From: Pocillopora verrucosa
Lineage: Eukaryota; Cnidaria; Anthozoa; Scleractinia; Pocilloporidae
NCBI RefSeq assembly: GCF_036669915.1
Contig: NC_089323.1
Location: forward strand, 20,449,804-20,513,803
Length of the DNA stretch: 64,000 nucleotides
Reading direction: 5' to 3'
Under the pieces are notes generated by a model. That model did not search any database. It worked only from the letters and a program-made list of their open reading frames with translations, and had not been told where the DNA came from. The stretch's first letter is position 1. Every line of letters begins with the position of its first letter. The translations under genes were made by a program, and so were the position numbers. This document shows, piece after piece, positions 12,131-51,762 of the stretch.

Positions 12131-12390
12131 TTTAAATCCAATTAAGACTATTTGTGGTAGCTAGATGTGCATTTTACCTTTGAAAACCTGGTTAATCTTA
12201 TTCGCTCACGAACGAAGTTCAAATGTTTCAAAACGCCGCCATGTTGATTGAACGGCATACACTGGGGCTCAGTTGGACCAAGGTTCCTCACGACCAACTC
12301 GGATAAACATGGCGGTTTAGAGATCCTATTGTCTTTTTATGTTTACGCTGTATTTTGCCCCATCAAGTTGATTGGAAAACCTTTGATCCG
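12131..12390. promoter_or_regulatory. Bidirectional promoter between SREK1IP1 and HMGXB4
   Basis: The two start codons face away from each other across 260 bases. The interval contains two copies of the motif ACATGGCGG/CCGCCATGTT (near 12237-12246 and 12307-12316), which resembles YY1-type CCAT core sites common near animal start sites. The regulatory role is inferred from geometry and motif resemblance only. Confidence 0.55.
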
Positions 12391-15300
12391 ATGTCTCATC
12401 GAAAGGCAACTAAACGTAGAAGAGAATTAGCTGGAGATGATGACTTCTCCCCGTCTTTCTTCCCGCAAAAGAAGCGATCTAAATCGCAAGAACAAAATAC
12501 TCAAACGAACGAAAGGCTACAGGATAATCTGTCGATGGAAGAAACTGAAACTGGTGTTAGAAGGTCATCAAGGACTCCTAAACCAAAAGTATTTGACGAT
12601 GAAGAGACTGCAGTTATTAGTCGAAGTCCTGACGTAACTTTAAGTCCAAAACCAAGTGACTTTGAAATAACTCAATCAGTAGCCAGTCAGCCTTCCAATA
12701 AATCCAAATTAACTTCGCCCACAGACGACGCTCCGATCGCCAAGAAACCTAAAAAAATAAGTTCTTCAGCCACTTTTGACGAGGGCCATAAAAGAGAAAC
12801 GAGACGAAGCTATCAAAGTTATCTGAAAGAAATCGAAACAGATACGGAAGTTTTCAAGGATGCTATTGTTAAGGTGGTTGAGGATCGAACACCAAAGCTC
12901 ACTGAAAATATTCAGAAGGATAAAAAAGAAACAGGATCTTCAAAGACACGGATTAAGAAAGAAACACAAGCAGATTTTTCTCCAAAAGTCAGGACATCTT
13001 CTAGAACCCCAGTTCCTAAAAGGATCTTCTCTCTGCTTGAAGAGGGAGAGAAGGAGGAGAAGAAACCAGAGGTATCTGTGATCCCAGAGGATACAATTGA
13101 GCCAGTACATATACCATCAACGTCTCCTAAAATGAGGGTCTCCTCAAGGGCTCATCTACCAAAGAAGAACTTTTATTTATTGGAGAAGGATGATGTTAGG
13201 GAAACAAAACAAGATGTGATAGAGAATAGCAGAACAAGAACTCCAAAAGTTCAAGGTAGCAAGAAAAGTAAATCCAAAGAGGGAAGAAATGATCAGGAAC
13301 TGTTAAGGAACACACCAGAAAATTCCGATGAACCATCTCCAAAAATCAGAATTTCTTCACGAGGTCACATGCCTAAAAGAACTTTCTCACTTCTTGAAGG
13401 TGACAAGGATGACAAGAATATAGAAGAAAATAGAAATCAGTTGCCAAATACACTCAGGGATGACAATGGTATGTCACAGACTCTTACTGAGTTCCAAATT
13501 ACAACTGTAGACCTAAAGGAACCAAAGAGGCGAAGGAGTTCCAGCAATCAACAATTAAATAAACCAAAATCATCTCCTAAGGAAGAGGTAAACTTGTTTC
13601 CAGACCGTGAAAGTGAAGTGTCACTTAGCACAGCAGACAAATTAGATGTGTCTAAAGGCATCAGTGTGAGTATTCAAGAATCTGGTGAAGTGTATATGGG
13701 AAGAAAGAAGTCAGAATATTCTAAAGATGATCAGGATAGAGGAAAGATGAATAAACGAAAGGGTAAACCTGTGAAAAAGAAGATTATGCAATCAGAAGAA
13801 GTTCAGATGGCAACATTAACAGCATTCAAAGTGAGAGCTGAATCTGACCATTGTACTGGTGAAGAAACATCATCGACTCCAAAGCCAGCCAAACCTAAAA
13901 GCACACCTAAAGTTAAACAAGCTGATAAATCGTCAACAAAGAAAGGCAGTAGTGTTGGAAAAGGAGTCATGAAGGAGGATGGTGTAGAAAACAAACTAGG
14001 ATTTTCACAGAGTGATATTGTTACCAGTGATGATAATTCAGCAAGTGATTTAAATGCTGGTGCATCAAATGTGAAAAGAAAGGGAAAGATCATGAAAAGT
14101 AGTAAACAGAAGGCTAGCAAACACAAGGATACGGTGTCTGAGGAGCTAGAGAAAGTTCAAAGTAATCATGACAGTGAAGATAAAGGACATGAACATATCA
14201 TCCTAAAATTACAGCTTCCTCAATCAGAGGATGGAACAAAACATAAGAAACATCATCATCATCATCACCATCATCATAAGCACAAACAAGCATCTAGAAA
14301 TCACAAAGATGGATCACCAAAAACATCACATCACAAGAAACCTGCTGCTAAATTACATCCTGATGGCAGTCAAACAGTCCCAGCCTCAGAGAAAAACAAG
14401 AAAAAGATTTCAATCAAATTCAAAGGCCTTTCCAATAGTAATGTAGAAATGGTGAGCAATGCCTTAGAACAAAGCAGCAATACAGTGAATTTACCTGAGC
14501 AATCAAAGGAAGGCAATAAAAAGAAAAAGAAACAAAAATTTCCAAGTTCCCAGAATGAAAAGCATCTAGCATCACCATCACAAACTGAAAGTGAACATGT
14601 TAAGTTAGTCATAAAGAAAGAGAAGATTCCCACCAGTAGTAAGTCTGATGAAGTGAAGAAAAAGAAGAACACTAAACCAACAACACTGGCAGTAGACCAT
14701 CAGAAAAAGAAAGGCTCTTCTAAAACAGAGAGTAAGAAAGAAACATCAGCTTCAACTTCAGCCAAAAGAATCAAGTCACCACAGGTAGGTTCATCTCATT
14801 AAGCTTATCATGTATGCTACACATGTATGTGCATTTTATAATGTATACTATGTGTATCAATCAATATCTTTGTGGAGTGGTTTGAACCTAAGGAGGAGGG
14901 GTTACATTTGAGTATGTTGTCTGATCTTTTGGGTAGTCTTGTCGGTAGTGATGACTGATGTTTGACAACCTGAGTGGAAGTCATCATCTGACTCTGATGA
15001 TGACTTTAGTCACTAACAACAACAGTCCTTCTCAGGACCATCCTCAATCAGATAATCAGACTACATGGTCAAATCAGTATCATGATAAGAAGTCTTAAGT
15101 TTTATTGTAGAACTGGCTCTGCAAGCAAGCAAGATGGGCACATGCTGTTTGCTCGGGGTAACCTCCTTTTGTTATCTCTGAAAAAAGGATATTGACTTTG
15201 TTCTAGTATATATAAATGCAAAACTGTTCTATATCCAGCTCTTTTGATTTACAGTAACACTTTATGTTACTTTATGTTTTATGACTCAGAATGTTATATG

Positions 15301-19594: not shown

Positions 19595-19651
19595 TCATTC
19601 GATCAGTTTAAACCTCCGTAGTCACCCGAGCAGAGCAGCGCTGGTTTAAAA

Positions 19652-20569
19652 ATGGCCGACTTCCTGACGATTTCCCTTCAGAAAAGTGGAATATACTTCC
19701 CTCAACCAGGATCAAAGCTATTTTCAGTGAGTAAACAGATGATCAGGCCTGTTCCAAAGCTCGAAGATGTTTCTGAACAATTAAACTTGCCGCAGAAGCA
19801 AAGAACTTCAGTCATTGTCTGGTCACCTCCAACAACACCGACGAACGAAGTCACGCCGCCTTCTCCTCCACAAACTCCAACAACTCCAACTGGAACCATT
19901 CTAAGCTACTCTCCGACTTCACCGAATGTTATTCCACCAAGAGGCAGACCCAGAGCGGATGTAGTAAACATTCTGATGAAGGAAGGCCAGAATTCGTATT
20001 CTTCGATCCGATGCGATGTGTGCCATCGAGTTTTCCCGCGCGAAAAGTCTCTGCAAGCTCACAGGAGAACACACAGCGGCGAAAGGCCTTACGTTTGTGA
20101 TTTCCCGAACTGTGGGAAAGCTTTTGTCCAAAGTGGCCAATTGAAGACTCATCAAAGGCTACATACAGGCGAAAAACCGTTCGCTTGTTCCGCTCAAGGT
20201 TGTACCACTCGATTTACACATGCTAACCGCCATTGCAGCATTCATCCGTATGCAAGCCTGAAGCGTATCTTTACCGATATTCCGCTGAAAGAAATCTTGA
20301 AAAACGAGAATTCCGAGCCTAACGAATACAAAGCGGCTGTTTTACAATGGCTGGCTAACTACGAGCTTGATAAAGAGGAGCGAAATCCTGCAAAGGTTCA
20401 AGAGAAAGTCATGAAGCGGAAGGTAGAAAAGGAAATCGCTAGGCAGCAAGTTGTTGAAAGAAAGAAATCAAGAATTGAAGCAAGAAAGCGAATGGCTGAG
20501 GCAAAAGAAAGATGGTATGGAGCTATGGCTCTCGTAGAACTTGCTGATACTCAATTTAACTTTAATTAA
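19652..20569 (+). CDS. ZNF367: Zinc finger protein 367
   Basis: Intronless, 305 residues, starting at an ATG after a GC-richer leader (start MADFLTISLQKSGIYFPQPG). A Pro/Thr/Ser-rich segment lies at residues 58-98. It is followed by GRPRADVVNILMKEG, which matches the block before the fingers in vertebrate ZNF367. Then come C2H2 fingers at about 121-141 and 149-171 with classical linkers (HSGERPY, HTGEKPF) and a shorter third finger at about 179-198 (FTHANRHCSIHPYA), also characteristic of ZNF367. The C terminus is a Lys/Glu/Arg-rich probable coiled coil ending near MALVELADTQF. It is a DNA-binding transcription factor. A polyadenylation signal AATAAA lies at 20618-20623. Confidence 0.94.
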   Translation: MADFLTISLQKSGIYFPQPGSKLFSVSKQMIRPVPKLEDVSEQLNLPQKQRTSVIVWSPPTTPTNEVTPPSPPQTPTTPTGTILSYSPTSPNVIPPRGRPRADVVNILMKEGQNSYSSIRCDVCHRVFPREKSLQAHRRTHSGERPYVCDFPNCGKAFVQSGQLKTHQRLHTGEKPFACSAQGCTTRFTHANRHCSIHPYASLKRIFTDIPLKEILKNENSEPNEYKAAVLQWLANYELDKEERNPAKVQEKVMKRKVEKEIARQQVVERKKSRIEARKRMAEAKERWYGAMALVELADTQFNFN

Positions 20570-37963: not shown

Positions 37964-38475
37964 GTAAGAGTTATTGAAAATTAGCAAATTTTACTCCACC
38001 ACTTCTTTCTCCAAAGTATCAATAAAGCTCTTTAAATTTAATTACTTAACATTTTCCACTGAAAGATGCCATTTAACCCCAAAGTGGCAGTATATATCAT
38101 TAAGCTAAAAGAACTCGTTCGCGTTGTTTCCTCCTGTTTCAAGGAATTTAAACTGTAATGAGCTGGTCTGAGTAATTATAAATTTTACACCATTGAATTA
38201 GGTAAAGAAATTGTGAAAGGTAGATTGATTGTTCATGGCTCTAAAATTGGTTATTTGTAAGATCAGTAAACTTGTGATATCACCGCTGAAAACCTCCTGG
38301 CCCTGATATAACAGACAATTCAAAACAAACAAACTAACAAACAAACTACATAGCCCGGTTCCCTCCTGAATGCGCCAAAACAACAACGATGGCGATAATG
38401 ACAACAAAAACTACAACTAAAAAGTGAGTCAAATTTTTGCTAAGAGAAACTTAAGATAAGAGATCTTTCTCTTAC

Positions 38476-38859
38476 CTGGACTGCATTAGACGAGAGTTTT
38501 CTCCGTTGTTTGATAGCACATTCAGTTTCTGTTGTCGGACTCTTTGGCGGCCTCGCAACCCGGGAAAAAAGATTGCTCAAAGATGCTAAGGAATTAATCA
38601 TTTCTGGGCTTCCTTTCTTTCTGTTGATTTTCTTGGTCAAATTCATAATTTTTAACTCATTTCTTGGGTTTTCATGTGAAACAATAGTGCTGCTGATCTT
38701 TGAAGGATCGTCAACGAGTGAAGTTTGGTTTGACTCTTCAGATGGTGAGAGTCTTTCTTCAACATCTTCGCTATCAGACAGGAGCTCTTCCTCTTCACAA
38801 GAAAGTATTTTCGCACTGTGGCCAGTGAACAAGGAGGCTAGTGAATCTCTACGTTTCAT
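38476..38859 (-). CDS. Unidentified 5' coding exon (128 codons)
   Basis: An ATG-initiated frame (MKRRDSLASLFTGHS) runs 128 codons to an in-phase donor (GTCCAG|GTAAGA). It is acidic and serine-rich in the middle (ELLSDSEDVEERLSPSEESN) and basic later (NLTKKINRKKGSPE; RPPKSPTTETECAIKQRRKL). I do not recognise the family. The next exon was not found. Because it ends in phase 0 upstream of FCHO exon 2, which also starts in phase 0, an alternative first exon of FCHO is formally possible, though that would replace the start of the F-BAR domain. A frameshifted copy lies at 63499-63881, and the protein-level similarity of the two copies supports past coding function. Confidence 0.5.
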
Positions 38860-39569
38860 CCTCTGGCCCCACAATAGCCATTTTAAAATTATCTTTCCAA
38901 CTCTCCTGTAGACTTTCTCAATTAATGTTTTTGAAAAAGTCACATCGTATACTTGATTTGTTTAACTGTTCAATATCGACACATTCTAGATGAAAAACGT
39001 TTTGAAGTTTTCTCTCGAAAATGAAAGCTGAAGTTTTGGAACATTTAGCTGTTCTTAATGCAGTCGTAGCTTGTTGTAGCTTGGATGTTTTGCTGACATT
39101 TTCATGCGTAAAATGAGTTTACTTTGAGTGAAACTGTACGAAAATTGTTAGAATCCCGGATGTCAGACCCCTTGACAAGGGACTGCGAGATGTGTTCAGC
39201 CGTATTTCACTTTATGGCCGTCATAGCTACAGCGTGGGTCGACTAGAATTGAGAGAGATGGACTAAAACTTTGATTCGATCATTATGAGATTTCGGCATT
39301 TTCTGGGAAATTTTCCGTTTTTTTTTTTTTCAACACATAAATATTAAAGTCAATGTACTTAATTGTGAAGGAATACGTTCACCGAGACTAAGAGGGCCTA
39401 AGGTCCAAAAATTTCCGTCGCATCTTCGTACTTCTTCGGAGAATTCCCGAGACTTAATCGTGCATACCAGTCGGACTCCGAAGGTTTTAAGTGTGTAGTT
39501 CCGCATTGGCTCGATTGTCTCACATGTTTCACTGCATAGCTCGACAGTGTTTCGAGCTGAATTCATAAC

Positions 39570-42500
39570 ATGGCAAGGACATTCCCCTACAATCTTCATT
39601 CAATACTTTTCCTTTGGATAGCTCTGGGTTACAGTGAGGGTGAGTTACCTAACTAACAACTGTGTAGATATTCACGTTGACGAAGGGCAAACGCTCGACT
39701 GAAACGTCGGCCTTAGAAAATACCTACGGTGGCCAATTTACATCATTAACTCAATTGACAAAACCAAATTATCTTGTTATACCCCAACTAACGCAACACT
39801 GCACATGAAAAATTTACCCCCACACTTTGGAAATTTACCCCCACTATTCGGCAGCTGTATATGTTTGTGTCTGGAGTAAGTTGAGTTTCGCACGTGTTCA
39901 CGTGACAATAATAATAATGGAAGATAGATGATCGTCTTTTCACGAGCGTAGGACGAAGAAAAAATCTGAATCTCCATGAGAAATGGAACCTCAGACCTTT
40001 GGATTCAGCGCTCCGATGCTCTACCGCAGACTCGCCACAGAGACTCTAGTTTGTATGACACACAGAGTTACAAGCATGACTCTATCGACATTGCTGATCC
40101 TGGCTGTACGCAAGACGCTTGCCACATGAAATTCCTAATAGACCTTGCTCACCGTAGAGTCTCTGTGGCTCAGTGGTAGGGCATCGGAGAGCGGAATCCG
40201 AAGGTCTGAGATTCGATTCGCCGGAATTCAAAAACACCTTTCTCTATTTCTCTAACGAGCTCAAAACTTACCATCTCTCTTATTTTATTTACAAATAATA
40301 ATAGAGTCTGTGAATGAATGAAAATCACTTATGTGAACTGCGGCTTAAGCAATGACCATAAAGCGATCTTCGCAGTAATCAATACTACTTAAGTAGTAGT
40401 GAAAATATGGCCTTAAAAAAATTCAGGCCTGTAGTAGCTCAATCTCAATGAAAATCCAGAAGAATCTTAAAAGGATAACTGAATAAATTCGCGTTGTAAT
40501 CTTTTTACCCGTTCAGTATTCAGTGGTAACTAAATTAGGCACTAGCTTTGTTTGTGGTTATTTGACATTTGGGATACATTTCCGGCCGAGGGCTGATATC
40601 ACTGTCTAATTAAGCGAAAAATTGATTATAGTAAAGTAATACTAGAGTTGTTAGGTCCAGAAAACAAAAATCAGCCAGGCGGGAAATTTCTGTTTCTTTG
40701 CGCTTTCGATTATGTCTGGAATTCGATGCGAGATTCCATGAAACCTTTGAGACAAGGAGCGACTTGTAGTTATATTGAAACAAAGAAGAACTTCGTCCGA
40801 CTTCAAGTGATATTGATATTTTATATTAATATCGAACTACAAATGATGTTTATTAAGTATTTCAAATTGAAGAAGAACAATGTTTTGAGCGGCGATCATG
40901 CGAAAGAGTTATTGTTTGCATCAGGTATCTAAAATTACTAGGCATGTACTTAAGTTTAAACCCAGATACGGCAAAAAGACATTATCGATCAAAACAAAAC
41001 CACTGAAGCCATCAAAGCTACCAAAACAAACAACTACAAGGATTGAAACGAGCGATGGGAAAAAGACAATTAACTTGTTACTATGCTTGCCTTCGTGCTG
41101 AATACAGTTAAACTCCAGAGTTCTATAAGGTAATATCTGTCCAACATACATTCACATTTCCTTCAATTATCAACAGCGGCATTAACATGGCCCACTGGGA
41201 CATATGGTCTACCGAGAGCAAAAGTTGGCTGTCCTGTGACAGCGAATTCCACGGTATGGGCCACAGGATGGCGATTTGAAGACACTGAGGACTACAAGTC
41301 AATCACCTCTAAATCGCCGAGTTTTCATCTTGATACAGAGGTTGGCATAGATGTTAACAGAACGTTCTGTATTAAGACAAAGGACATCATCTCTGAGGAG
41401 GCTGGCGAGTGGCCACAAGGTAAGTGATATACAATCAAACTGCAAAAAAGTAAAGACCAGTGAAGATGCAGACTTTGTGAGGCCACATCCTTCCCCCTAG
41501 AAAATCGTGCCACTCACCTCCTCTTCGTTTTCTCTATTAGTGTGGGGTTGGAGGGGAGGGAGGGTATGGCTTCTCGTAAGTTAGCAAAGATACTGTGTTT
41601 TCCAGAGAAGCCTTTGATACCACAGAAATACCAAACTAACAAAAAAATTGCAATTGAGAATAAGGTGTTTCCTTCTAAAGATGTTCTGGGATATCAGGCT
41701 GCCCAGGGGTTCGCTAGCACCTGCATGGGTAGGGTCACCATATTGCTGGTTCCCTTCGTTTGACCTCCTCCTCAAGGGATGAATGAAGAAAGTTGCTAAG
41801 GATACTTCCTTGAAAAAATACGAAATGAGAAGCAATAATCCTAGTTGCCTCTCGGCAAACAATCAGTGGCCTACAAAAAAACTATTGAATTTAACACTCC
41901 TTAAGGTTATGGACCATGAGACTCCGTGACCCTGTACCTTCTGTTTTCCAGTCTGCCTTTTAGTTCGTTGAAACATATACGAAAGCAAGCTTAAAATTCC
42001 TATAAGTTTGCAGAGATTGGAAGATATTTATTATGATTATTTCCTTAAGGCAGATATTGTATTTACAAGAAAGGTGATTGCCCCAGAGGACTGAAAGAAG
42101 GTTACGTATTTTGGGACGACGAAAACGATAAGAACATCAACGATCAAGGAGGGACACTTCCTGATGGCAAATACGACAAGGACACTTCTATATACTATTG
42201 TTGCAGCACCGACGGTGACAAATTGAAGCCCATCCCCCTCCCCCTAATCAGTCCGTTTTACCTTATGGCTTTCAACACGTCAGAGTGCCAGCGCGTGCAA
42301 GGCGCCATTGCCACAGAGGAGTACATTGCATTTGACTCTGAAGATCACAACAACCAAAATGCGCGTAATGGAAGCTATCCCTTCGGAGCAGGAGGGAGGA
42401 ATCACCGAGTCTATTATTGTTATTATGAAGGTAAGGGGTTAATGTCAGTATCTGTGCAACTACCCTCCCTTAACAACTGATGACAAGTTAGGGGTTGAAG

Positions 42501-45500
42501 TTGGGTTAAAGTTGGGTTAGGGGAGGGGTAGGTGCGAACTTGTTCACATCACGAAATTGAACCAAGATAAGTTTTGTAGCAAGAACATTAGCACGTTGTG
42601 TAGGCATATCGTAAAAGTAAACACTTTTCAAAATTATCCAATGTGAATTTAGCGTAAGTACGCAAGGTTAGCCTCAATTGCTTTCGTCACCACGATACTA
42701 GTTACTGCAGTATAACGTTGTTGACACGATACCGAGGGAGGAAGCGGAAAAGTTTAGGGACGCTGTCCTCGTAGTCTTCGCCAACGAGAATAATTTGATG
42801 AGAAAACTACCTTTAATTAAAGTTGGGCAGAGTAGGAGGGTATCTTTATTGGGTGAGGGTTAGTCGAGTTTTAAAATCGCAGAAAAAAAATGCAAACCCT
42901 TTAAAAAACTTGATAATAACTCCTGACCTAGCCCACTTTGTAATATGGGTGAGTAGGGATCATCATTTATAGGGAATGGGGATAATCCCAGGGGTTTTGT
43001 ATCCTCCATACGGGGCACGAGGGTCTGAGACAATAAGGAAGACATGCAAGTGGTGGTCACAGCTCCAATAATTTCATTTGTGTGTGTGTGTTCTTAGGTT
43101 GTCTCTATACATACAGCTTGGATAACGACGAGCAGATGCTATTCATCTCTCCAAAATTCTTTAACGATGGATTTCCGTCGGAGCAGAAGTGCACGTGGCG
43201 ATTTGTTGCCCGAGAGAAGGAGAGTAAGGTGCATATTACCTTTCTGGAGACACATATAAGAGAAGGCGACAGTATTTCTATTCGTAATGGCTGGAGCAGT
43301 GGATCAGTCGTGGGTAAAATAGATCCAATAAATCCCTTCGATCCCAATGGATATGCGTCACAGAACAATTTTCTTCTCGTGGAGTTTAATTCAAAGTCTT
43401 CCTTAACACCTGGGATCCATCATCCCAAAGGTTTCCGCGGAATATTCAAAATTATTTCAAATGAAGGTAAGAATCACTGCGAGAAGGTAACAATATTATT
43501 GCCTTAGAGGTCAATGAGTCTCTCAAGTGGCCTTTGGTTTGCACTACTACCTCAGTATGAGGCAAAATGACACCAAAGAATTTTAAATTGACACCTGGAA
43601 AATATCATTGTTGGCAACCATGTTCAGATATCAGATAACTATAATTATAATTACTACATAACTGATCAAGTCCTGATAACGAAAGATTTAGAAAAACATT
43701 TCATAATAAAAAAATAGCGAGATTAAAACATGACGTTTGGGCGACAACATGTCACCATCATCAACTGTAAATTATTATAAGTTCAGTGACGTTATCTAAA
43801 GAAAGGAAAGTGTAAAAAAAAAAGAATGCACATAATTAAATAAATAGTTTTCTCTGGAATTGAGTATTTCTGACTTTTCAGAGTCGGTCTCTTTTTCCTT
43901 ATTAAAAGCATCTCATAAATAAGGCACTCAAACTAAATAGCGAGATTAAAACATGACGTTTCAGCGAAAACATTTTACAACTGTAAATCAACTCGTTAAC
44001 TGTAAATTATTAATATATAGATTTAGCCAAGCCTAAAAGCGGAGCTCGCATTTTTTTTCCCGCACGTCTCAAGGGCACAACGCCTTGCCCCGGCCAGGAC
44101 TAGAACCCGTGTCGTCCGACTCGGAGCCCAGTGCACTGACCACTGGACTACTGAAAAAAGCCGTGCCCAGTTGATCAGGCATGTTAAAAGTAGGACCTTG
44201 TACGGTCGTACGGTCAGATTTTGTATAATTACGGGGCTACGCTCTGCGAGCTCCGCGAGCTCGCAGTTCAGCGACGTTATCGAAAGAAAAGTGAGAAACT
44301 AAATTAGAATAAAATGAGATTGAGTAGAACAAAAAAATGTATATAATTAAATAGACAGTTTTCTCTGGAATGGAGTCTTTTTGACTGTTCAGAGTCGGTC
44401 TCTTTTTCCTTCTTAAAAGCATCTCATAAATAAGGCACTCAAACTTTCTGCGGCATTTCTTTAGGATGGCAAATTGCTGGTGAAGATTAATCAACTGTAC
44501 CCAGTTATGTAGGTTTTTTATCTGTTTGAATGGTTGCAGTTCGACAGGGTCCTAAATGGCCAAATGGTACATACGGGCTCCCCCGCCCCAGGGCCGGCTG
44601 TCCTCCGAGGTCAGACGACATCTTCTGGGAGACTGGATGGAGGTTTCAGGACACTGAAGACAACCAACCTAATAACACAGTATCTGAGAGCTTCCACATG
44701 GATGCCACGGTCAATAAAGATGACATTAATAAAAGCTTTTGCATTGCTACGCAGGATAAGGGAGTACAATGGCCAAAAGGTGAGTATAGTTTATCTAAGC
44801 AGGGTTTAGCGGCGACCAGCGGAGTATACATCCAAACTAGAATTACAGTAATACGCTGACACTAGTCCACACCCAGGGATGCAGTCTCACTGCACTTAAT
44901 AGCCGTATTAATAAATATATCAAATTGCAAGGTATCGCGGCATTCTTCTGTGTCAAAAATAATGGCAGCACCTCACCATGGATTAGTGACGTGGTATTGT
45001 TTTAGATATATTTGATCCCATTGATCCGAGGAAGTTATTTTCTCGCAGGTCAGTATTGCATTTATAAAAAAGGAGCTTGCCCCAAAGGCCTCTCTGAGGG
45101 ATATATATTGTTTGATGACGAAGACCACAAAAACCAGAATAAGATGGGAGGGACACTTCCAGACGGAATATACAACAAAGATACGAATATATCGTATTGT
45201 TGTCGGACGGATGGTGACAAATTGGAGCCCGTCACCCTCCCTGTGAGCAATCCTTTTTACTTGCTGGCCTACAACACATCTGAGTGTCAGCAGGTTAATG
45301 GAGCTATCGCTACAAAGGAGTTTATACGCTATGACACCGAAGACGATGTTCATAACAGAGACCAGGTTAATGGTGCTTATCCTTGTGTGAAAGGAAAGAA
45401 TTTGACGATTACTTACTGTTATTATCAAGGTCTGTATTTACAAGGAGTGGTACGTAATGGTATATCAGTAATTACAGCAAATGAGCAGTCAAAAAGCAAG

Positions 45501-48034
45501 GCGGTATGAGGCAAATCAATCCCGTTCCCAGGCCCTTTCCTAATTTTGAAAGGAAAAGGTGAATATAATGGATAAAGCAATACCTTACCCTGAGAAGTCT
45601 GCCGCAGCCGTTTTAAAGAACCTTCAGAAATCATCGTGCCACCTCATAGCTCATAGCGAGCTCAAAATGCAGTCACACCAGAATTTAACGAGTGAAATAT
45701 TTGCGGGGTTCGCTTCATTTTCCTTCTCTCCTTATGGTCATAATTTTGGTTTAATCTTCCCTGCTCGAGAAAGTTTTCCATAGTATCAGTATCAGTAACT
45801 CTTTCAATCTACCACGTAGGGGGTTAGTCTTTGAAACTTCAACAGCACATCGTCAGGAGTTTCGTTTCAGGGTTCTGATCAGGCCTTCGTGTTTATTGTA
45901 GCGGCCATGGGGTTTATGAAAGTCCCTACTGCACTTCACCCCGACTGACCATCCTTTTCTGTGGGATTTTGCTCAAGGGCACGACAGGGACATTGAGCTG
46001 GTCTTCGTTCCCCGTGGTTAATGTCCTATGCTCCTTACCAGGAGCGAAGACGGCCTTATCAGGGAACAAGGGAAACATGCTGCGTGCGACTGCACTTCTT
46101 TCCTTGTGTAAACGCAAATCTTATGTCTGTTTCTCTTCTCAAACAGCCTGTCATTACACCATGAGCGAGACTCCTCAGGAGTTCATGTCCCCTTTTTACC
46201 GCAGTGGTGATGGCTACCCGAACTCACAGCTCTGCACCTGGCGATTCTTGATACAGGAGAAAAACCCTAAATCACAGCAGATCCTAATCAAGTTCCCAGA
46301 GTTCAATTTAAGAAAAGATGGGGACGGTGACGTGGTGAGGATTTACAGCGGCTGGGACGAGAAGACAAAACTTCTTGCAGAATTTAATGGTGATCACCCA
46401 CCCCCAACCAAGGGTGTGGCAACTGACTCCTCTGTGGTGTATGTGGTATTCAAATCTGACTCACAAGCCCGCTCCAAGGGCTTCAGAGGAGTTTTCTTGA
46501 TTCAGAGTAAGTAGTAAAGGCACGTTTGTAGCAAGCATCGTCTTTTAATAATTGGAGAGGTCGTAAATGAATTAAAAACCATCTGTCTTAAGGAAAGATG
46601 TTCTATGATATAAGTGAGATCTCTAACCATAACATGCTTTTGTTCTCATAGCATACAATGCTGCTTCTGTACCAACACGACCCATAACGATTCCAACACG
46701 GCCCATTCCAGTGAAAACAAATGAAACTTCAGGTAACAAATCCGTAGTCCAGGCCCCGTACTCCGGGCCCCGTAGTCCAGGCCAGCGTAATAACAATAGT
46801 CTTAGATTAATACCAATAAACCATAAAGGAATACGAATTCTTAGGGTCAGGTGAACCCAAAACAAAGAAAATAGTTTTACTTTAATGCACCCTATACTGT
46901 CTCCTTCACTTCATTGGACATTTACTTATCCACTTCTGTACAATTGGCGCTTCTCCATTTCCCAACTCCCCCAAATTTATCTTCATACCATGATTGACAC
47001 TTTGATCACAGACGTGATCAAGAGCCATCTTCTCCAAACGGTAAACGGTACATATGTATTGATAAATCATCCAACAAACTGGTACCAAGAATAGAATAGT
47101 ACATGCTTTCTTGATTCAACACCATATTCTCTTTACTTTTATACAAGGAAGTGTAAAGCAGTTACAGGAGAGAATTAATTTTTCAGATCTTGGACAGTTG
47201 AACAGCTACAGTAGATGCATCTGCCTGTTCACACAGTTGTGTGCAGAGTAAGAGAGAAGCTGCACTTATAGAAATCACAATATATTTTATTGAATAGTGT
47301 CTTTACTAAATGTTCAGTTAAAGAAAAGACGAACGAGACAGCTACAGTAACCACAGCAAGTGCCAGTTTAAACCTAACGACGACAAAATCCGAAGGTAAG
47401 TATCACTTTCGGTTTTGCGTTTAATCTTACTGAAATACGGGTGAGTGACATGCTAAATGTCGCAGAGTATCCTTGGTTAGCCTTATTTTTAGTATAGTTA
47501 AATAATTAATTATCGTTGGAGGTGAAATAGACCAGGAGCAGTCCCTCCTTTTCGGCGAAGTCTGGGAGTAAGACGTACTTTTTGAGCACTATACATGCAG
47601 GGTTAGTTATTCAAAACAAACATTTAAAAATAAGTAGTTCAGAGGGATACAAATGAAACCCGTCTTTTATCTCTCTCATGCACTGGAAAGATTTGATTTC
47701 TCATGGAATTTTTTTAACGTTCTGCATAGAATTTTAGCTTAGGATGCTATTATTCATACATGGATTTTATCTTGCCCGAAAAGGTTCGCAGAGCGCTCGT
47801 TCAGGAAAACACGGTGTTCCAACTGCTATTATAGTGCTCGTGGTAATTGCAATATTGATTGGCATGGCGGTCAGTATATACTGCATCAGACGAAAGAGAC
47901 TGAGGCAAAGAATAAAGAGGATGACAAATTCCGGGCTCCTGGCTCAAGGCAAAGACAGGGAAAGCTACCATTATAGTGATCTGGAGGAATACGAGTTTAC
48001 GGGGGAAACACCAGACTTATTTCCACCGTCTTAA
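39570..48034 (+). CDS. Type I membrane protein with two ApeC-CUB modules
   Basis: Ten exons, 817 residues: 39570-39639, 41177-41419, 42050-42430, 43098-43466, 44540-44779, 45049-45429, 46147-46506, 46652-46732, 47318-47395, 47784-48034. Signal peptide about 1-23 (SILFLWIALGYS). ApeC-1 about 24-231 and ApeC-2 about 355-561 show the apextrin C-terminal hallmarks: WPxGTYGLPR...GCP, WxTGWRFxDTED, YCIYKKGxCP, DDExxKN, SYCC/YYCC and YCYY. CUB-1 (about 232-354) and CUB-2 (about 562-681) have CTWRF, SIRNGW or RIYSGW, and KGFRG. A Thr/Pro-rich stalk (about 682-745), one transmembrane helix (about 746-769, IIVLVVIAILIGMAVSIY) and a basic-then-acidic tail with YSDL follow. Every internal intron is phase 1. 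ApeC binds bacterial glycans in studied invertebrates; a surface recognition or adhesion role is inferred. No MACPF domain is present. Confidence 0.92.
39975..40055 (-). repeat. tRNA-derived SINE fragment
   Basis: On the minus strand the segment reads TCTGTGGCGAGTCTGCGGTAGAGC (split here at 20: box A-like TGGCGAGTCTGCGGTAGAGC) followed by a box B-like GAGGTTCCATTTC, matching the neighbouring plus-strand copy at 40158-40235. It lies inverted relative to that copy, in intron 1 of the ApeC-CUB gene. Confidence 0.6.
40158..40235 (+). repeat. tRNA-derived SINE head
   Basis: Contains a pol III box A-like sequence TGGCTCAGTGGTAGGGCA and box B-like GAGATTCGATTC about 40 bases apart, the tRNA spacing. 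The region cannot fold as a normal tRNA and ends in non-tRNA sequence, so a SINE is favoured over a functional tRNA gene. Inside intron 1 of the ApeC-CUB gene. Confidence 0.65.
43850..44450 (+). repeat. Direct repeat pair in the intron between CUB-1 and ApeC-2
   Basis: About 43856-43940 and 44340-44442 share a block beginning GTTTTCTCTGGAAT and including AGAGTCGGTCTCTTTTTCC and AAAAGCATCTCATAAATAAG. Nearby, the phrase GAGATTAAAACATGACGTTT occurs at about 43711 and 43941. The repeats flank the SINE at 44065. This is a mobile-element or small-duplication remnant. Confidence 0.7.
44065..44160 (-). repeat. tRNA-derived SINE
   Basis: Reverse complement shows AGTAGTCCAGTGGTCAGTGC (box A-like) and GGTTCTAGTCC (box B-like; consensus GGTTCGANTCC). 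It lies in the intron between CUB-1 and ApeC-2 exons and differs from the 40158 family. A true tRNA is unlikely given the imperfect acceptor stem. Confidence 0.65.
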
Positions 48035-50523
48035 CTACCTCTGAACCAATATTGGTCTGAATTAAATTGTGCTTTTTGAATGGCAATTAGGTGGCTAAAA
48101 CATAGGTTTAAAGTAAAACTTCTTAGCTATAAAGCGAGATTAAACCCCTTTTTTAAGAAAATCAGCTGGGAATTTGTTCAAGCTGGAATTTGAACAAAGA
48201 AAAAACAAAGAACTATACGAACTAAACGAAATATATGGGAAAGAACAAAGTATAATACGAAAGAAAAAAAAACATTCAATTTTTCTCGTAATATGTAAGA
48301 TGGGTTTCCTCTCTAATTTTGTCGCTGTTTATTTCGTGTTAAAGCAATTGAGAATAAGGTGAAATACAATGATTACCAAACCTTGCACAAAAAAAACCTT
48401 TCTCGAATTTATAGTATTTAAATATTAGTAATATCATGAGGTGATGGGCTCCTGGAAATTCTCAAAATCGTAAGCAATTCCAGTTTTGGTCATTTAATGA
48501 TTCCTGGGTTTCTGTTTATTTTTCTTCCTATCTAATTAAATATTAACAGCCTTTTTCAACACGTTGTGGATCAGTGACTCTATTGGCTGAATGAACGTAC
48601 AAACAGATGACGTTAAAACGCCTTTCAAGACGTCAGCGACGTCACAACCGCCTTTGTTTCTCACGTGCGTGCCTATATCTGTCTCTATTCAAAACTTTTG
48701 ACGGCTTAAGTGCCTCAACGTTGCGTAAATAATAGTGTTAATGACCCCGAAATAAATTAAGGTTGCGAGGAAAAAAAGAAATTTTTTTGAGGACTTCTGT
48801 CGTTTCTTGAATCGAAAACTTATCACTTGTTCATTGCTCCAAGTCAAGTGAACATATTCTAACTTTTCACAGAATAAACTATGTAGGCGAAAACAGAGGA
48901 GGTTGTATCCATATTAATCCTAAATTTACCGTGTAAATAAAATTACCTAATAGGTGTGTAGGAGGGCAGAACTTGGGCTTTCACAAAAGGTTAATTTTTC
49001 TCAAAAGGGACCGTTGCGCTTCTTTACGGGAAGAGAGCTGGAAAAACAAAAGTGCCCCATATTCAACAGTGTTAATGAACATCGTGAGACAAAACAAACC
49101 CACAAAAGTGCACATGAATCGAGATCTATTGCCCGAGGTTCCTGAAATTGTCATTAAACGATACAACATTCATGTGGTTGACTGAAAAATCTCGTAACTG
49201 ACAATGGCTCAAAGCAATTCTAGATTTGAATTGGTTTTAGTAATCACTTCCTCGTATTTTGGCGATATCCTGATATCAAATAAAACTTTTTGGGATATTG
49301 TCGCAAGATATTGGAAATATCCGGGAGATATAAATATATTTTGATACAAATTTGCGTTTGCAAGCTTATTAATTTTTATGCCGATTAGCAAAAGGTCGGG
49401 ATTTTCCGACCTTGAGTTCCGGTCGGGTTCATTACGTTTGAGAAGAGAAAAAGTGTGCAAATTTTTTTTCCTTTCGCTAAGTGATGACTGTGTGTTGAGC
49501 AACATGCAGGTAAAGAATATATTATATTTCGAAGTTATTTTGGCTTTAAAAGGTTAACGGTAAGGATAATTTGAAATCAAAGCAAATTTCAGTCCTATGT
49601 AGATACATGTATATTTAGGCTTAAACTAGATTTACATATTTACGACTTCGTTTCAGAAGGTGGATCAAAACAACAAAATGGAACATTCCCCAATTTCAAA
49701 AGGAAAAGTCGTATCGCATTAAAATCGGGAAACTTCTGCGGCCAAATTTTTTTTGGAGCTTTGGCATACAACCTTGTGCGTAGTGCCCCGCGCGCAAATT
49801 ATTGTTTAGCAAACATCACTTTTCTCGCGAATCACACAACAGCCCGTGATGCGTGTTAACAGCCTAATGCGACGGCAAGAGGCTATCTATATTAACTGCT
49901 CTGCAAGCTCTGAAACAAAATGTTAATTTACGATTATTTATATCGTCGAAGAGTAAAATCTGTAGATTACAGCCTGGAAGGTACATTGGCAAAGATCGTG
50001 GAAGGTGTGTTGTAAATTTTCGCCCTGATTTCACCTGCAGATTAATCCACCAGGTGCAGGAAGCGAAAAAGGAGCGAAATATTAAAGACTCAGAGAAATT
50101 ACTGTGATCGATCTCTCTGATATCGAAACGACGAGAAGAAAAAAATCAAAGTCGTTTACGTTATTCAGAGCACGTAAAATAAGCGACACGCCCCCGATGT
50201 CTGAGTTGTGAAATATAAACATTCATGACCATTTAGCTTCTGAAGCCATATTTAGCATCTACGGTTTAGATCAATAATTAATCGTATTTGTTTGACATAA
50301 ATGACTCTCAGCCATTCAGCGGCCCAGAAAGAAAATGCGCGGCGCCTTGCTAAATTTACAAGGAATAAGAAAAGTGATACAAGATTATCTACACACGTTA
50401 GTCTGATCCAATCTGCCCTGGGAGGTTAGACTACAAACGCGCGCTAATCTCACCATTGCAGACGAACTTTTTCGTGTTATTTTGATGAAGAGTTTGCCAC
50501 TGAGAGCATAATACATTTACAGA
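48035..50523. other. Intergenic region downstream of the ApeC-CUB gene
   Basis: Starts with the ApeC-CUB 3' UTR. Near 48617-48651 there are three GACGT-type motifs (TGACGTTA, GACGTCAG, GACGTCAC) resembling CREB/ATF sites. ORFs at 48973-49185 and 49209-49505 have no recognised homology and are not called. The last part must hold the promoter of the ORF at 50524. Confidence 0.5.
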
Positions 50524-51762
50524 ATGATATTTACGCACATTTTCCGTTATTTGGATGACAGAGATGCTGAAGAGACGAGGAAAAACAACGGTGAAAATAT
50601 AAGACCGCCAGCCGCGGAGTACCGGTTTCATGTGTCCTCAACTGAGCATCGTGATGCGAAGTTTGAACAGATTTCTTGGAAAGCAACTCCAGGTCTAACT
50701 GTTGTTTCCGGAGCTCACCAAACAGGCGCAAGTTTAAGTAAAACATCATCCAGCGCTCCTCTGGCTCAAGGATTTTGTTCGTTGCGAGGGGAAACGCTTG
50801 GCGCAAAAACAACAAAGAAACAAGTTTTACCTCCAATTGGAAAATTACAAATTTCAGGGCTAGGTGGAAAAGAGTTTACACAAGATGAAAATTATTTCGC
50901 AAAACTGCCACCAATTGAACCACTGGATGACAAAACGCAAGCATTTCCGAAAAAATCGAGGGCATGTTCGGAAAAAGAGAGAGAGTCAATTTGGAATAAT
51001 ACCTCGATAAATACTCGACTGCCTCATAAAGATCAAATATGTTTGGGGACGAACAGCGCGGAGCGGTTCAACACGGTAGGGCAGGTTAAGGAGGAGAGTA
51101 ATCCCAGGATAGAAAATGTGACAACGACTAATCTGACTCCAGAATTATCGGCTGATAACTGGAATAAGAAACACGGACTTACAATGCAAACAGTTGATGA
51201 CATGACGTTGGTCAAAGCAGGCGCTAAAACTTCTTATTATCAAAATGCTAAAATGAAGCTGGACATTGAAACTGTTAAAGTCCGATCCTCGAAAACTGAT
51301 GCGATTAACGCCGATGAGACGAAGGAGTACAAAATTCGGCGAATTCAGACGCGACTAAAGAGTTTCTCGGACGGCGAAGAGTCACCTGAAAATGAGGGGT
51401 GTCAAAACCGGGATGAAAATAGGAAAACGAAGATGACAGAAGATTTATATAAAAACTTGGGTTTAATCGACCGTAACACTGGCTTTCTACGACACTCCAC
51501 GAAACGAAGAACGGGATCTGCAAAGTCCCGGTGGTACAGTACGCCTTGCGTACAAGCAGGGGAAGTTTCACGTTTGAAAGCTCACGGAGGCTCTATTTCT
51601 TCCGCGGTGCGTGGCGAAGGAAAGAGGAAACGTCCGATACAGTTACTTGCGTGCGTCAAAGGAAGACGAAACGCTATCTGCGAGGTAATTGAACAGAGCA
51701 TAGAGCCTGAATTCGGTTCGAGTTTATACGAAATGAGGAAAAGTTTAATTAGTATAACGTGA
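50524..51762 (+). CDS. Unrecognised intronless 412-residue protein
   Basis: A single uninterrupted ATG-to-stop frame of 413 codons in a region where frames of this length are otherwise absent, which is the main evidence that it is a gene. The start MIFTHIFRYLDDRDAEE is followed by low-complexity, basic, Ser/Thr/Lys-rich sequence with few hydrophobic stretches and no signal peptide or membrane helix. Candidate short motifs are KQVLPPIGKLQI and FAKLPPIEPL, two copies of a LPPI core (about residues 100-135), and a basic C-terminal third (LRHSTKRRTGSAKSRWYSTP). I do not recognise the family; it may be lineage-restricted. Transcription start and polyadenylation sites are not resolved. Confidence 0.65.
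   Translation: MIFTHIFRYLDDRDAEETRKNNGENIRPPAAEYRFHVSSTEHRDAKFEQISWKATPGLTVVSGAHQTGASLSKTSSSAPLAQGFCSLRGETLGAKTTKKQVLPPIGKLQISGLGGKEFTQDENYFAKLPPIEPLDDKTQAFPKKSRACSEKERESIWNNTSINTRLPHKDQICLGTNSAERFNTVGQVKEESNPRIENVTTTNLTPELSADNWNKKHGLTMQTVDDMTLVKAGAKTSYYQNAKMKLDIETVKVRSSKTDAINADETKEYKIRRIQTRLKSFSDGEESPENEGCQNRDENRKTKMTEDLYKNLGLIDRNTGFLRHSTKRRTGSAKSRWYSTPCVQAGEVSRLKAHGGSISSAVRGEGKRKRPIQLLACVKGRRNAICEVIEQSIEPEFGSSLYEMRKSLISIT

Follow-up and report, generated by a model that had tools for sequence, protein, structure and literature searches.

The locus described here raises the question of what a protein with two ApeC and two CUB domains does when it is anchored in a membrane. As far as the published accounts available to us go, functionally studied ApeC proteins are mainly secreted agglutinins. 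The window (the whole stretch of DNA analysed, 64,000 nucleotides of the Pocillopora verrucosa genome) had been read in an initial annotation as containing a gene for a membrane-anchored double ApeC-CUB receptor candidate. It also holds three other open frames on the + strand, namely an 831-codon frame at 12307-14802 that is Lys/Ser-rich with a histidine run and a 416-codon frame at 50512-51762, neither matching a Pfam family at E up to 0.01, and a 315-codon C2H2 zinc-finger frame at 19622-20569.

Spliced reconstruction of the + strand from 39570 to 48034 joins ten exons into a single 817-residue frame, with GT-AG at every junction and nine introns that are all in phase 1. The exon coordinates and the product of the initial annotation proved correct on these grounds. 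The splice search was confined to narrow windows round boundaries read by hand and returned the best-scoring of 972 frame-compatible paths, so that the ten-exon path does not amount to an ab initio prediction. For exon 9, an acceptor at 47324, six bases on, is a close competitor and would give a product of 815 residues. Exons 2-9 are each phase 1-1 and hence skippable in frame; by eye, a leader is seen in exon 1 only and a membrane helix in exon 10 only. The exons are as follows.

39570..39639, + strand: exon 1, with the start codon and a leader resembling a signal peptide (aa 1-24), from the spliced frame; the leader of a second gene copy has 87% amino acid identity
41177..41419, + strand: exon 2, N-terminal part of ApeC 1 (Pfam ApeC 9.6e-19, profile 1-77 of 208; splice sites)
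42050..42430, + strand: exon 3, C-terminal part of ApeC 1 (Pfam ApeC 4.9e-49, profile 79-208)
43098..43466, + strand: exon 4, CUB 1, diverged, with 2 cysteines (Pfam CUB 6.9e-6, 26.8 bits against a cut-off of 21.4)
44540..44779, + strand: exon 5, N-terminal part of ApeC 2 (Pfam ApeC 5.9e-22)
45049..45429, + strand: exon 6, C-terminal part of ApeC 2 (Pfam ApeC 3.5e-45, profile 79-208; 62% identity to exon 3)
46147..46506, + strand: exon 7, CUB 2 (Pfam CUB 1.7e-15, 57.7 bits against a cut-off of 21.4; PDB neuropilin-2 CUB 1.4e-5)
46652..46732, + strand: exon 8, Thr/Pro-rich stalk (splice sites, frame; identical in the second copy but within a near-identical tract)
47318..47395, + strand: exon 9, Thr-rich stalk with N-glycosylation sequons (splice sites, frame; alternative acceptor 47324)
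47784..48034, + strand: exon 10, encoding the membrane helix (aa 746-769), a basic stretch and the cytoplasmic tail up to the stop codon (frame; hydropathy in the second copy 3.22)

The encoded protein runs from the signal-like leader through ApeC, CUB, ApeC and CUB to a Thr-rich stalk, one membrane helix and a 48-residue tail. The domain order, helix and short tail that had been claimed were borne out by Pfam, by splicing and by the second copy. Over the whole protein, Pfam PF16977 (ApeC) matches two stretches (1.5e-146, 486 bits against a cut-off of 26.5) and PF00431 (CUB) another two (8.5e-21, 74.8 bits against 21.4); among single-exon matches, CUB 1 is weaker than CUB 2. Each ApeC is spread over two exons and each CUB occupies one, and exons 2-4 (243, 381 and 369 bases) and 5-7 (240, 381 and 360 bases) appear to represent a duplicated three-exon module, with 62% identity between the C-terminal ApeC exons and 38% between the CUBs. 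In a CUB tree of 16 rows, the four window-type CUBs separate from the other 12 with high support. An ApeC tree of 13 rows, in which the programme flagged long branches, does not resolve ApeC 1 and ApeC 2 as sisters.

Both CUBs have two cysteines in the alignment. A canonical CUB has two disulfide pairs and an acidic calcium site; of the acidic positions that we take to form this site, CUB 1 aligns with none and CUB 2 with two of three, and neither is a canonical four-cysteine calcium-binding CUB. Against PDB sequences at E up to 1, CUB 2 matches four neuropilin-2 entries; these are the only matches, ApeC having none. An AlphaFold2 model of ApeC 2 exon 6 aligned with exon 3 was not usable (mean pLDDT 33). 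Eight cysteine columns are invariant in five aligned ApeC domains (the two in the window and three of five in a cluster on contig C8), and three D-x-E-D/N motifs occur in ApeC 1 (DTED, DDEN, DSED) and in ApeC 2 (DTED, DDED, DTED). ACPs are defined by about 200 residues, eight conserved cysteines and three DxED-like motifs (PMC8361754). With its Pfam match, eight cysteines and three motifs, each of the two domains fits this definition. MACPF is absent among the 11 Pfam families listed at E up to 1 and, since none lies N-terminal to ApeC, the protein does not belong to the apextrin subfamily.

A second copy of the gene lies about 29 kb downstream on the same contig (G000:C12:20518830-20527646; 69027-77843 in the numbering of the window). 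It agrees with the first in the length of each of its ten exons and in its splice sites, and its 817-codon frame is open; the two copies differ at 62 of 817 residues. No indels separate exons 2-10 (0 in 2384 aligned bases), against 13 in 4234 bases of introns 2-9 (P = 6.6e-4). Introns 5-8 are likewise free of indels, which makes the comparison uninformative for exons 5-9, so that the test really covers exons 2-4 and 10 (no indel in 1244 aligned bases, whereas introns 2, 3 and 9 have 10 in 1672 bases; P = 5.9e-4). For exons 5-7 the support is Pfam; for exons 8 and 9 it is the splice sites and the frame. That the terminal exon at 47784-48034 is joined to the ApeC-CUB exons is supported by phase, by order and by its presence in both copies.

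Divergence between the copies is uneven, and one tract stands out.

43977..47477, + strand: tract near-identical to the second copy (0.8% difference against 6.2% outside)

The score of this contrast was reached by 0 of 1000 permutations, and the tract covers ApeC 2, CUB 2 and the stalk; it is probably the product of gene conversion or unequal crossing-over. Homology continues into both flanks (upstream 38002-39362 with 88% identity; downstream to 49252 with 92%), which means that the duplicated unit exceeds the gene. The homologous upstream stretch, whose distance to the gene is about 4.5 kb greater for the second copy than for the first, also contains a 173-codon open frame on the − strand (38440-38961) that matches no Pfam family at E up to 0.01. 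An assembly artefact in which two alleles had been placed side by side was considered and appears unlikely, as the copies are 6.2% different outside the tract and about 12% different in the upstream stretch.

The dN/dS ratio between the copies is 0.71 for the gene, 0.81 for ApeC1-CUB1 (exons 2-4) and 0.64 for exons 5-9, where it is based on only 10 changes; no test shows a ratio below 1, and none was shown to lie above it. Positive selection had been suspected from the 85-88% amino acid identity in exons 2-4 and was set aside in view of the ratio of 0.81 there. Nor did any stretch tested show a significant excess of replacement over silent change, with every Fisher p at or above 0.34 (exons 1-7 and 10 singly; 8 and 9 pooled only). 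Differences are more frequent in exons 2-4 (67 of 993 bases) than in introns 2-3 (59 of 1285; p = 0.027). We do not claim diversifying selection from this, because p rises to 0.17 when exon 10 and intron 9 are added and because silent sites are raised too.

The hydrophobic leader of exon 1, a candidate signal peptide judged by inspection, recurs in the second copy. All 13 N-glycosylation sequons of the protein lie outside the tail. The helix at aa 746-769 is followed by the 48-residue tail, which starts RRKRLRQR, and the combination of one helix, basic residues and tail predicts a type I membrane layout, judged from hydrophobicity. Within the tail lies a candidate sorting motif.

47972..47983, + strand: YSDL, candidate YxxPhi sorting motif (tail aa 798-801), from the sequence; kept in the second copy

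YSDL matches what we take to be the YxxPhi consensus. It is kept in the second copy, yet the tyrosine two residues earlier has changed (Y796F), and a comparison of two copies does not by itself demonstrate conservation. None of the nine changes in exon 10 falls in the last 20 of its 83 residues (p = 0.07, with a window chosen afterwards). The best Pfam match of the tail exon, SCIMP, scores 19.2 bits and so falls short of its cut-off of 27 bits. In the genome, the membrane-tail exon matches only the two gene copies, which implies that the remaining ApeC-CUB genes do not share it.

Such remaining genes exist. The 353 Mb assembly (52 contigs) contains 66 ApeC matches, and at least 13 of the 31 that reach the domain end have a CUB within 2 kb downstream on the same strand. 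The CUBs compared comprised 12 picked by eye from 150 scored of 608 candidates, plus four from the two gene copies, and because of this selection by eye 13 of 31 is a lower bound. Eight of the 13 lie on C12, including four in the two gene copies, and five on C8, where they make up all the one-exon ApeCs of a cluster. With a home-made CUB profile, a CUB was found in 13 of 20 loci taken round the best ApeC matches. A second cluster on C12 (G000:C12:20675085-20704239; 20.675-20.704 Mb) has repeated ApeC-CUB exons, with four CUB exons arranged as a repeated pair, two of them having the same amino acid sequence as the other two; it also has three candidate membrane-helix segments with phase-1 acceptors, one of which has a poor pyrimidine tract. 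In the C8 cluster (G000:C8:4882561-4930075), each of five one-exon ApeC domains is followed downstream by a six-cysteine CUB, and one of the five ApeC matches carries an in-frame stop. In the one gene followed there, a Ser/Thr-rich stretch and a hydrophobic helix come within about 0.9 kb after the CUB. The membrane helices of both clusters are candidates, not gene models. A locus on C4 (G000:C4:12976993-12978792) combines a PAN exon with ApeC and has no CUB; its stop three codons past the ApeC domain gives it the look of a secreted protein, and a single hydrophobic segment follows at a distance of about 3.7 kb. Similar ApeC matches occur on C4 at 12.936 and 13.014 Mb. Beyond the coral, none of 98 pattern matches in viral contigs and none of 128 in bacterial and archaeal genomes was confirmed as a relative; the latter search is insensitive to distant relatives, as it missed the distant bacterial ApeC-like domains reported in PMC8361754.

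Comparison with known systems places the gene as a new combination, not a new kind, since CUB plus ApeC, double ApeC and membrane-bound ApeC proteins have each already been published (PMC8361754, PMC9585378, PMC12373286). It resembles amphioxus ACP5 (Branchiostoma floridae) in having CUB and ApeC in one protein behind a signal peptide, which in the coral is a signal-like leader (PMC8361754). ACP5 binds microbes, and its ApeC binds Lys-type peptidoglycan. As described there, ACP5 has one CUB by the signal peptide and one ApeC at the C-terminus, with no membrane helix mentioned, whereas the coral gene encodes two ApeC-CUB modules, a stalk, a membrane helix and a tail. Lancelet fucolectin-CTLD-CTLD-CUB-ApeC proteins are likewise multi-domain with a CUB adjoining ApeC, but their CUB precedes ApeC and they carry lectin domains; most genes of this clade are dispensable, and ApeC proteins are generally called secretory receptors in the same source (PMC12373286). 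Dual-ApeC proteins of mollusc group 6 and of other groups, Cnidaria included, share the two ApeC domains, but the main text of PMC9585378 mentions neither a CUB nor a transmembrane segment in them. Apextrins share ApeC with the coral protein; their published layout is signal peptide, MACPF and ApeC, with no membrane helix listed (PMC9585378), in contrast to a helix without MACPF here. The architecture had been called unusual, a description that stands in part: the literature on ApeC and apextrins yielded no description of ApeC-CUB-ApeC-CUB with a membrane helix, which Li et al. 2021 (Mol Phylogenet Evol 155:107009) or the 2014 PNAS paper may contain, but this genome has other ApeC-CUB genes, some with candidate helices, and both CUB plus ApeC and dual ApeC are in print.

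Based on this layout and on ApeC proteins of amphioxus and molluscs, from which the glycan-receptor function is inferred, we propose, at about an even chance, that the gene product is a type I receptor that recognises microbial glycans, in which paired ApeC domains provide avidity and uptake is the output. In this model, (i) the leader would be cleaved and the protein would reach the cell surface as a single-pass type I receptor; (ii) a Thr-rich, probably glycosylated stalk would lift the two lectin-like ApeC-CUB units off the membrane; (iii) the ApeC pair would bind peptidoglycan or related microbial glycans with higher avidity than a single ApeC, with the CUB domains acting as spacers or partner-binding modules; and (iv) bound particles would be taken up by a clathrin-type route or phagocytosis, or the ligand would be passed to a co-receptor. 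Uptake would be the simplest output, as the tail has YSDL and no recognised signalling domain. A surface pattern-recognition role fits the published peptidoglycan binding of ApeC; symbiont recognition, also suggested initially, has no support of its own. In amphioxus, Lys-type peptidoglycan is bound by the ApeC domains of ACP3 and ACP5, whereas LPS, LTA and zymosan A are not; both proteins attach to microbes and agglutinate them but do not kill them (PMC8361754). In molluscs, two ApeC proteins have been described as recognising peptidoglycan (PMC9585378), the title of a 2024 study of a sea cucumber ApeC protein names recognition and internalization of a Vibrio (reference in PMC12373286), and the transcripts of a stony coral immune cell type include ApeC proteins, termed secreted (PMC8162421). 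That the binding evidence stems from other phyla counts against the microbial-glycan reading, and ACPs are reported to have no orthologues between phyla (PMC8361754).

The same parts could serve an epithelial adhesion or apical-matrix protein for development, settlement or metamorphosis, which we regard as a rather doubtful but serious alternative. Apextrins were first described, according to the accounts available to us, as apical extracellular proteins of the larval ectoderm; Acropora apextrin is expressed in the ectoderm until metamorphosis (PMC1896004), and sea-urchin apextrin lies in the apical matrix with a proposed role in cell adhesion (PMC8361754). These apextrins are described as MACPF proteins, however, and no MACPF was found in the 817-residue protein. 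CUB domains are frequent in developmental proteins, and among solved structures (E up to 1) only neuropilin-2 is matched, on CUB 2. Tandem duplication with partial conversion, as seen here, is commoner in recognition families than among fixed adhesion molecules.

An agglutinin like the amphioxus ACPs, shed by cleavage in the stalk or alternatively secreted through a stop just inside intron 7, seems unlikely to us. Read-through from exon 7 does reach a stop after two codons, the phase 1-1 exons 2-9 permit in-frame skipping, and the PAN-ApeC gene on C4 is apparently secreted, but both gene copies retain an intact membrane exon. It is very improbable that there is no 817-residue product at all and that the exons are instead parts of a pseudogene or of at least two separate genes. 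This would suit a path chosen among many frame-compatible ones within hand-set windows and a ratio of 0.71 that no test places below 1, and a recent duplication would have copied adjoining genes together. Against it, both copies keep all ten exons with matching splice sites and have an open frame of 817 codons; indels are confined to introns 2, 3 and 9 when these are compared with exons 2-4 and 10; all introns share one phase; and the only leader and the only helix stand in the first and last exons.

If the protein is an ordinary adhesion molecule, the locus has little significance beyond genome annotation. As a further and speculative step, which we consider improbable, the tandem membrane-anchored ApeC-CUB genes might form an expanded family of uptake receptors in which the outer ApeC1-CUB1 diverges while conversion keeps ApeC2-CUB2 and the stalk near-uniform, so that a variable head on a constant platform would sort bacteria or algal symbionts. 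Should the microbial-glycan receptor itself prove true, a membrane-tethered bivalent ApeC-CUB protein would link glycan binding directly to the cell, and its two intact copies, with their unequal divergence, would offer a ready test of which module holds specificity.
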